A stretch of 64,000 bases of DNA. Source: Candidatus Schekmanbacteria bacterium. Lineage in GTDB: Bacteria > CSSED10-310 > JACPHN01. Location of the stretch: contig JACPHN010000019.1 of assembly GCA_016188575.1 (NCBI GenBank), positions 113,996-177,995 on the forward strand. Direction: 5' to 3'. The notes beneath the pieces were generated by a model. That model was given only the letters and a program-made list of their open reading frames with translations. It made no database searches and was not told the DNA's origin. The stretch's first letter is position 1, and each line of letters begins with the position of its first letter. Shown here in pieces: positions 35,952-38,900 of this stretch. The translations under genes and the position numbers were made by a program.

Positions 35952-38900
35952 TCACGCGGCCGCCCATTCACCGGACAGCAACGCCGCCTGCTCCAATACC
36001 GTCTGCGTGGCCTTCTCCTGCTTGTCCGGCGGATAGCCGTGCTTGCGCAGGATGCGCTTGACGAGCACCCGCAGTTGCGCCCGCACGTTCTCGCGCAGGG
36101 TCCAGTCAATCGTCACGTTGTTGCGCACCGTCTCGACCAGCTCGCGGGCGATCGCGCGCAGCGTGTCGTCGCCCAGCAGCTTGACCGCGCTGTCGTTGGT
36201 CTCCAGTGCGTCGTAGAACGTGAGCTCATCCTCGCTCAAGCCCAGCGCATCGCCGCGAGCGCTGGCCTCGCGCATGTCCTTCGCGAGCTGGATCAACTCT
36301 TCGATCACCTGCGCCGCTTCGATGGCCCGGTTCTGGTAGCGGCGGATCGTCTGCTCCAGCATCTCGGCGAACGAGCGCGCCTGGACAACGTTCTTGCGCC
36401 GGCGTACGCTCAGCTCACCCTTGAGCAGCTTCTGCAGCAACTCCACCGCGAGGTTGCGCTGCGGCATGCCGCGCACCTCCGCGAGAAAGTCGTCGGAGAG
36501 AATCGAGATGTCCGGCTTCGTGAGCCCGGCAGCGGCGAAGATGTCCGTTACGCCCTCGGGGGCTACCGCGCGCGAGATGATCTGCCGCACGGCGTGGTCG
36601 AGCTCCTCCTCGGGCCTGGCGTCGCCCGGTGCGCGCTTCGCGAGCACCGCCTGCACCACCTGGAAGAAGGCCACGTCGTCGCGGATGCGCAGCGCCTTGG
36701 CATGCGGCACCGCCAACGCGAACACCTGCGACAGCTCGCGCACGGCGCGCACGCAGCGGTCCTTCCCGTTGTCCTGACGCAGGATGTGCTCCTGCACCGG
36801 TGGCAGCAGGCCGAGCCGCTCCTGGGGCGTCCCGGTCGTCCACTTCGTCCAATCGAAGCCGTGGAAGAGGCCGCAGCAGACCTCGTACTTCTCCAGCATC
36901 ACGGCGACCGCCTCGTCCTGATCGAGCGCGGTGCGGCCCGTGCCGCCGCTCTCGGTGTAGGTCGCCAGCGCCGCCTTCAACTCCTGCGCGAGGCCCAGGT
37001 AGTCCACCACCAAACCACCGGGCTTGTCCTTGAACACCCGGTTCACGCGGGCGATCGCCTGCATCAGCCCGTGCCCACGCATCGGCTTGTCGACGTACAT
37101 CGTGTGCAGGCTTGGCGCATCGAAGCCGGTGAGCCACATGTCGCGCACCAGCACGAGCCGGAGCGGGTCGGTGGCGTCGCGGAAGCGGTTCGCCAGCGCT
37201 TCGCGCCGCGGCTTGTTGCGGACATGCCGCTGCCAGTCCATCGGGTCGGAGGCCGAGCCGGTCATCACCACCTTGATCGCGCCCTGGTCATCGTCGTCGC
37301 TCGCCCACTGCGGCCGAAGCTTCACGATCTCTGCATGCAGCTCCACGCAGATGCGCCGGCTCATGCACACGACCATCGCCTTGCCGTCCAGCGCCTCGCA
37401 GCGCCTCTCGAAGTGCTCGACGATATCGCGCGCCACGATCGCGAGGCGCTTCTCGGCGCCGACCACGGCCTCGAGCTGCGCCCACCTGGTCTTGAGCTTC
37501 TCCTTGCGCTCGACCTCCTCGCCCTCGGTGGCATCCTCGAACTCCGGGTCGATCTTTGGCCGCTCCGCCTCGTCGAGTGCCAGCTTGGCCAGCCGGCTCT
37601 CGTAGTAGATGGGCACCGTGGCGCCGTCCTGCACGGCACGCTGGATGTCGTACACGCTGATGTAGTCGCCAAACACCGCGCGCGTGTTGGCGTCGGCCAG
37701 CTCGATCGGCGTGCCGGTGAAGCCGATGAATGAGGCGTGCGGCAGCGCGTCGCGCATGTAGCGCGCGTAGCCGTCGATGAAGTCATACTGGCTGCGGTGC
37801 GCCTCGTCGGCGATCACGACGATGTTGCGGCGCTCGGAGAGCGTCGGGTGCCGATCGCCTTTCTCCTCCGGGAAGAACTTGTGGAGGGTGGTGAACACCA
37901 CGCCGCCCGCCGCGACGCTCAGGAGCTCGCGCAGGTGCGCGCGGCTCTCCGCCTGCAGCGGTGGCTGGCGCAGGAGGTCCTTGCAGCGCGAGAAGGTGCC
38001 AAAGAGCTGATCGTCGAGGTCGTTGCGGTCGGTGAGCATGACGATGGTCGGGTTCTCCATCGCCGGCTCGCGGATAATTCGGCCGGCATAGAACGCCATC
38101 GTCAGGCTCTTGCCCGAGCCCTGGGTGTGCCACACGACGCCGATCCGGCGGTCGCCGAATCTCGCGTCCTCGCGCGGGCTCGCGCGGATCACTTCGACGA
38201 GCTCCGCGACGACCTGCAGGCGGTCGCCCTCATCGGGTGAGAGCACGATCGGCTCGTATGCGGGATTCAGGGGCTTGAGCGTGATCCCGACATGCCGCCA
38301 GGAGCCACCCGCGGGAGCCTTCTCGCTCTCGTACCGCTTGACGGTGTAGCGCTCGCCCGTCTCGGGATCGATCGCGTCGCGGAGCTGAACGAGAACCGTC
38401 TTGCCCTGCCGCGTCCCTTCGACCGGCGCGGAGAAGAGACACAGCGCGCCGTCCGGAATTGCCGGCTCCATGGACCTCCCTTCCACGCGCGCCGCGAACA
38501 TCCCCGGACGGAGCCGGCGCCGCGTCTCGACTGCAACCCATTCGAAGTCGTCGTCGAGCACGTGCTGCGGATCGCCGAAGGCACCGGCGGCCGCCTTCAG
38601 CGGCACGAGAGGGACGCAGCTCCGGTAGCGCTCGCGAGGTTCCGGCCGGACGAGCCTGGGTGCCGGTCGCGCCGACGGCGTGGCGCCGAGGCGAAGCTCG
38701 GCGGCCCGCAGCGTCTCATGGACCGCCACCTGCACCGCGTGGAACTGGTGGTAGCCGGCCATCTTCTTCGCCACACGGCCGCCGCCGTCGTCCTCGTAGA
38801 CGATGAAGTCGCGCACCAGATCGAGGAAGCGTTGCGGGGAACAAAGCCCCTCCATCACCACCTGCAGCTCCGGCAGGTGCGAATCGGCCAGCCCCTCGCC

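Follow-up and report, generated by a model that had tools for sequence, protein, structure and literature searches.

A LexA/CI-type S24 peptidase domain inside a type I restriction motor subunit and its relatives on unrelated defence enzymes

Introduction

It has long been asked how bacteria keep restriction enzymes off their own chromosome when it is damaged or freshly replicated. The alleviation of EcoKI restriction in E. coli depends on ClpXP, with the degron of HsdR not located (PMC4231737), and is independent of SOS induction and of LexA self-cleavage (PMC4231737, PMC11109961). The locus analyzed here, in a stretch of 64,000 nucleotides from Candidatus Schekmanbacteria (hereafter the window), bears on the same question in another way, since its hsdR gene encodes a type I restriction subunit with a peptidase domain of the LexA/CI/UmuD type (S24), which HsdR of E. 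coli is not known to carry. What could such a domain do inside a restriction motor? We lean slightly towards reading the insert as a portable autoproteolytic cassette of the LexA/CI type that would act as an off-switch of defence enzymes upon DNA damage.

The S24 Domain of the Window HsdR

The Pfam domains of the window HsdR follow the order HSDR_N, Peptidase_S24, SWI2_SNF2, T1R_D3 and T1RH-like_C (table 1). The protein has the nuclease, the motor and the R-type C-terminal domain of a type I R subunit, and its nuclease motif (PDVVLF...VVELK), Walker A motif (GSGKS) and DEAH box are all intact. It shares all domains and motifs with HindI/EcoR124-like HsdR proteins, of which module-free members are about 50-87% identical to it, but differs from them in the presence of an S24 cassette in the loop between the Q-motif helix and motif I.

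Table 1. Features of the hsdR gene and neighbouring genes, in positions of the window
Feature	Positions	Strand	Source or remark
hsdR, type I restriction R subunit (HindI/EcoR124-like), 1203 aa, with S24 insert	35952-39563	-	
HSDR_N nuclease domain, residues 7-212	38928-39545	-	Pfam
YHQ, residues 271-273, Q-motif-like, start of motor lobe 1, upstream of the insert	38745-38753	-	
Inserted cassette (linker plus S24 domain), about residues 296-462	38178-38678	-	
Predicted self-cleavage site Ala326-Gly327	38583-38588	-	position inferred from LexA/CI
Catalytic Ser364 (GRSMEP)	38472-38474	-	predicted from sequence conservation
Catalytic Lys409 (YTVKRY)	38337-38339	-	predicted from sequence conservation
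Helicase motif I GSGKS, residues 482-486	38106-38120	-	
SWI2_SNF2 motor, residues 459-687	37503-38189	-	Pfam
T1R_D3, residues 788-855			Pfam
T1RH-like_C, residues 872-1197	35973-36950	-	Pfam
PDC-M23A/M23B candidate	39560-43258 and 42730-43881	-	PADLOC
hsdS specificity subunit	43524-44870	-	
hsdM remnant: HsdM_N and C-terminal tail joined in frame, N6_Mtase domain missing	44854-45231	-	

The Peptidase_S24 profile (PF00717) matches residues 322-453 with 36.0 bits against a cut-off of 23.3 (E 6e-9). An earlier note on this DNA had proposed that residues 310-460, which correspond exactly to positions 38636-38184, form an S24 domain with an Ala326-Gly327 bond, Ser364 and Lys409, spaced by 37 residues from Gly to Ser and by 45 from Ser to Lys; the Pfam match and a check of the residues bear this out. 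The note had also placed the domain between the nuclease domain and helicase motif I. More precisely, the insert is not between the nuclease domain and the motor but lies inside motor lobe 1, after the helix of YHQ (residue 271) and before motif I (482-486).

The AlphaFold2 model of residues 300-493, built with 59 related modules (mean pLDDT 82.6), finds LexA, CI and UmuD as its only top structural matches (Foldseek E 3.5e-5). The LexA fold that the earlier note had anticipated is thus what the model returns, with VIA Z of 11.9 to T. maritima LexA (2.7 A over 119 residues) and of 11.6 to lambda CI; unrelated folds reach VIA Z of 6.7 at most, and the cut loop falls inside the structurally aligned range. 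A model of the full-length HsdR was too poor for use (pLDDT 47). With its profile score, Ser-Lys dyad, Ala-Gly bond N-terminal to the Ser and LexA-type beta fold, the window HsdR carries a bona fide S24 domain; the Pfam score, the structural match and the conservation described below lead us to reject a chance match.

The module shares with LexA, lambda CI and UmuD the fold, the dyad and the Ala-Gly cut ahead of the Ser, together with the Gly-to-Ser spacing of CI. It nevertheless forms a sequence subfamily of its own, which PDB sequences resemble weakly (best E 0.083), and it is carried by large enzymes of the restriction or helicase type, whereas the domains of LexA, CI and UmuD are attached to a DNA-binding or polymerase-accessory domain. 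Its cut loop resembles that of E. coli LexA, LPLVGRVAAGEP.

Conservation of the Cut Site and Catalytic Dyad

Among aligned modules, Ser and Lys are each present in 94 of 94, counts that are inflated because the patterns of our genome scan contained the Lys and residues adjoining the Ser; modules recruited by HMM instead of patterns keep both residues as well. The cut site, which was outside the patterns, reads AAG in 85 of 90 modules, the others having AAS (three), ACG (one) or VAT (one). Homologues that carry the insert and lack the dyad, the pattern that the earlier note had considered damaging to its proposal, are absent from this set. LexA with the G85D change is non-cleavable, and for this reason some modules with Ala-Ser or Ala-Thr at the cut (L095, L101, L103, L140 and L143) may be inactive.

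The A-A-G site and the Leu at P5 rank among the most conserved columns of the module (ranks 13-28 of 151), a constraint that binding alone would not require. We consequently regard it as distinctly unlikely that the fold serves for docking, either to RecA filaments or between enzyme molecules as a dimerisation domain, with cleavage incidental or very slow, even if the C-terminal domains of LexA and CI do dimerise and bind RecA, and RecA complexes (8gms, 8trg and 8gmu) are among the structural matches of the model.

Hosts of the Module

Related modules, 40-76% identical, are found on several unrelated defence enzymes and on XRE repressors. A scan of one genome per species by peptide patterns yielded 248 relatives, from which 80 loci were retrieved, and the hosts were identified by annotating one or two representatives per cluster. 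With later samples included, the enzymes that bear it are three kinds of type I HsdR, Schlafen-type helicases, the Druantia protein DruE, a type III Res and enzymes of type ISP/IIG. Among the long hosts, the scan itself gave HsdR (two types), DruE, type ISP/IIG and a type III Res on a viral contig, while later samples contained Schlafen group 3 helicases, a type ISP enzyme with a coupler domain and an Eco57I-like enzyme; only defence-type enzymes were found among the long hosts tested. The module is carried by 14 of 290 genomes sampled across bacteria, and its tree, though weakly resolved, requires no fewer than 16 switches between host types.

The window genome contains three further large S24 proteins. 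L008 is an EcoEI-like HsdR whose nuclease domain contains the module, close to the N-terminus (46% identical to the window module); L009 is another HsdR motor with a C-terminal module (58% identical); and L010 is a PLD-DEAD helicase of type IV-like kind, with a more distant C-terminal S24 domain that has an A-C-G site. The finding of an S24 domain in HsdR is real, and more general than the earlier note supposed. A description of S24-HsdR or S24-DruE fusions was not found in the literature searched, the coverage of which was partial; architectures of this kind may already be listed in automatic annotation. LexA figures in the Druantia III paper solely as an inhibitor's target.

We give somewhat less than an even chance to a wider reading, in which one mobile degron cassette, self-cleaving and triggered by RecA, was joined repeatedly to unrelated anti-phage enzymes (those of type I, ISP/IIG, III and type IV-like kind, Druantia and Schlafen helicases) and thereby couples the DNA-damage response to immunity in a general, post-translational manner.

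The module also occurs in two proteins with the classic layout of CI repressors, namely an HTH_XRE domain followed by the same S24 module (L042:7629-8465 and L138:3165-3914). These repressors and the CI-like fold would suit a sensor of phage or prophage regulators, in which the module is a bait for anti-repressors or forms hetero-dimers with phage repressors, an idea that we consider most improbable, for no match to the module was found in 50,697 phage records and we found no precedent. The same absence from phage records leads us to reject a phage origin of the module. One of 72,556 plasmid records has the module, at a Halomonas SLFN-type helicase locus (L127:3971-6441, plasmid of Halomonas sp. 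PA16-9), where the Schlafen group 3 helicase and the S24 module lie in frames overlapping by ~70 bases, reflecting either a frameshift or two overlapping genes.

Other details of the hosts are worth recording. In four type ISP/IIG loci (L025, L026, L051 and L074) about 196-198 extra residues follow the S24 module. At L047:7737-8459, the module follows the truncated start of a PIN-domain (VapC-like) protein in a fusion that has an in-frame stop close to its end, and this arrangement looks like a recombination remnant. Genes for XRE plus M78 (IrrE/ImmA-like) metalloprotease proteins lie near S24-HsdR at L071:2281-3468 and L009:13943-15211, and in 12 of 47 loci of the C-terminal HsdR group, module-bearing loci having been counted alone.

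Placement and Gain of the Module

Of 81 classifiable loci, 76 have the module at the extreme C-terminus, after all domains of the enzyme; the window form is among the rare internal ones (5 of 81). The cassette is nonetheless the same unit of linker plus domain in the window as in C-terminal fusions, and one HsdR of the window's own subfamily (L142) has the module at its C-terminus. A cut in a C-terminal fusion would remove just the module and therefore cannot part the nuclease from the motor. The earlier suggestion that cleavage separates these two activities would hence apply only to the rare internal form, and we reject it as the general purpose of the module.

In relatives that lack the insert, just a short loop takes its place. 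Among them are four HsdR proteins 81-86% identical to that of the window (L128-L131), and the three plasmid relatives that we aligned to the window HsdR also lack the insert; the plasmid relatives listed match the window protein in two pieces, covering 89% of it at most. The HsdR of a planctomycete (L071), about 68% identical, has the module in the same loop as the window. In the HsdR tree, from which the insert columns were left out, the two proteins lie apart, each with a module-free sister, and their grouping is rejected by the AU test (p 9e-39). Common descent of the two insertions is rejected on this basis, and the simplest reading is apparently that a permissive loop received a module twice, independently; one gain of the internal module followed by several losses, in place of two gains, would be the formal alternative. 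Chimeric assembly of the window gene is unlikely because L071 has a module in the same loop and many other fusions exist.

A Possible Off-Switch upon DNA Damage

We infer that the module would cleave itself, with RecA as the trigger and an inactive or degraded enzyme as the product. In the mechanism proposed, RecA filaments on single-stranded DNA would stabilise the cleavable state of the module, whereupon Lys409 would activate Ser364 to cut the Ala326-Gly327 bond, in a loop that we liken to LexA LPLVGRVAAG. Cleavage of C-terminal fusions would leave a whole nuclease-motor with the tail ...PLKAAA, resembling the ClpXP degron that precedes the LexA cut, and degradation of the enzyme would follow; cleavage of the window and L071 forms would also detach the nuclease and Q-motif from the remainder of the motor, and in L008 it would split the nuclease domain. 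In LexA and LexA-like repressors such as IrvR and HdiR, a latent ClpXP C-degron lies directly before the autocleavage site, and it is a portable tag on other proteins (PMC5742171); the putative degron considered here would instead act on a defence enzyme. Since such a LexA-like degron adjoining the cut site works as a tag, loss of the enzyme would be the simplest common outcome, by degradation in C-terminal forms and by breakage in the window, L071 and L008 proteins. On the other hand, catalysis and not degradation may be what keeps the AAA tail conserved.

The two kinds of internal HsdR insertion are so placed that cleavage would harm the enzyme, which favours the off-switch and counts against two alternatives. 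The main rival is activation on damage, in which the module holds the enzyme inactive until damage caused by phage leads to cleavage and releases the active form. A module-free HsdR of Ketogulonicigenium, 74% identical to the C-terminal group, ends at the module junction, so that a cut C-terminal fusion would equal this natural and presumably active protein, and the DruE and SLFN hosts might come into play late, as effectors. We nevertheless judge activation unlikely, because the internal insertions (window, L071 and L008) would be broken by the cut, the HsdR hosts have close module-free relatives with no special need for a lock evident, and damage to the host chromosome would trigger the enzyme too. 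Constitutive self-processing, by which the module would mature the enzyme during folding independently of damage, is in our opinion very unlikely: the internal forms would always be cut, and the module resembles the regulated LexA and CI and is used on XRE repressors, even though removal of a C-terminal module would be harmless and no sequence feature ties the trigger to RecA.

The proposed off-switch has in common with the alleviation of EcoKI a proteolysis-based shut-off of HsdR after DNA damage or the appearance of new unmodified sites. Because EcoKI alleviation relies on ClpXP and needs no LexA cleavage, the module would represent a different, built-in solution, and the independence of EcoKI alleviation from LexA self-cleavage counts against the off-switch. 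Restriction alleviation by RecA-triggered cleavage appears plausible all the same. If true, a built-in switch of LexA type would directly answer the question of self-restriction in bacteria other than E. coli. Being present on many kinds of defence enzyme, it would then regulate immunity in general, and the cassette would be a ready-made, damage-inducible degradation tag.

The Window Operon

Of the genes that complete a type I system, the window has hsdS and an internally deleted hsdM without its N6_Mtase domain. Because hsdM has lost the methylase domain, the window's own system is probably not functional in restriction, and the window copy is a poor object for testing the switch; the hsdM of L071 is intact, and four other relatives (L129-L131 and L133) have a nearly full hsdM. 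Between hsdS and hsdR, PADLOC recognises a candidate two-gene defence system, PDC-M23A/M23B, consisting of a HamB-like helicase and its partner.
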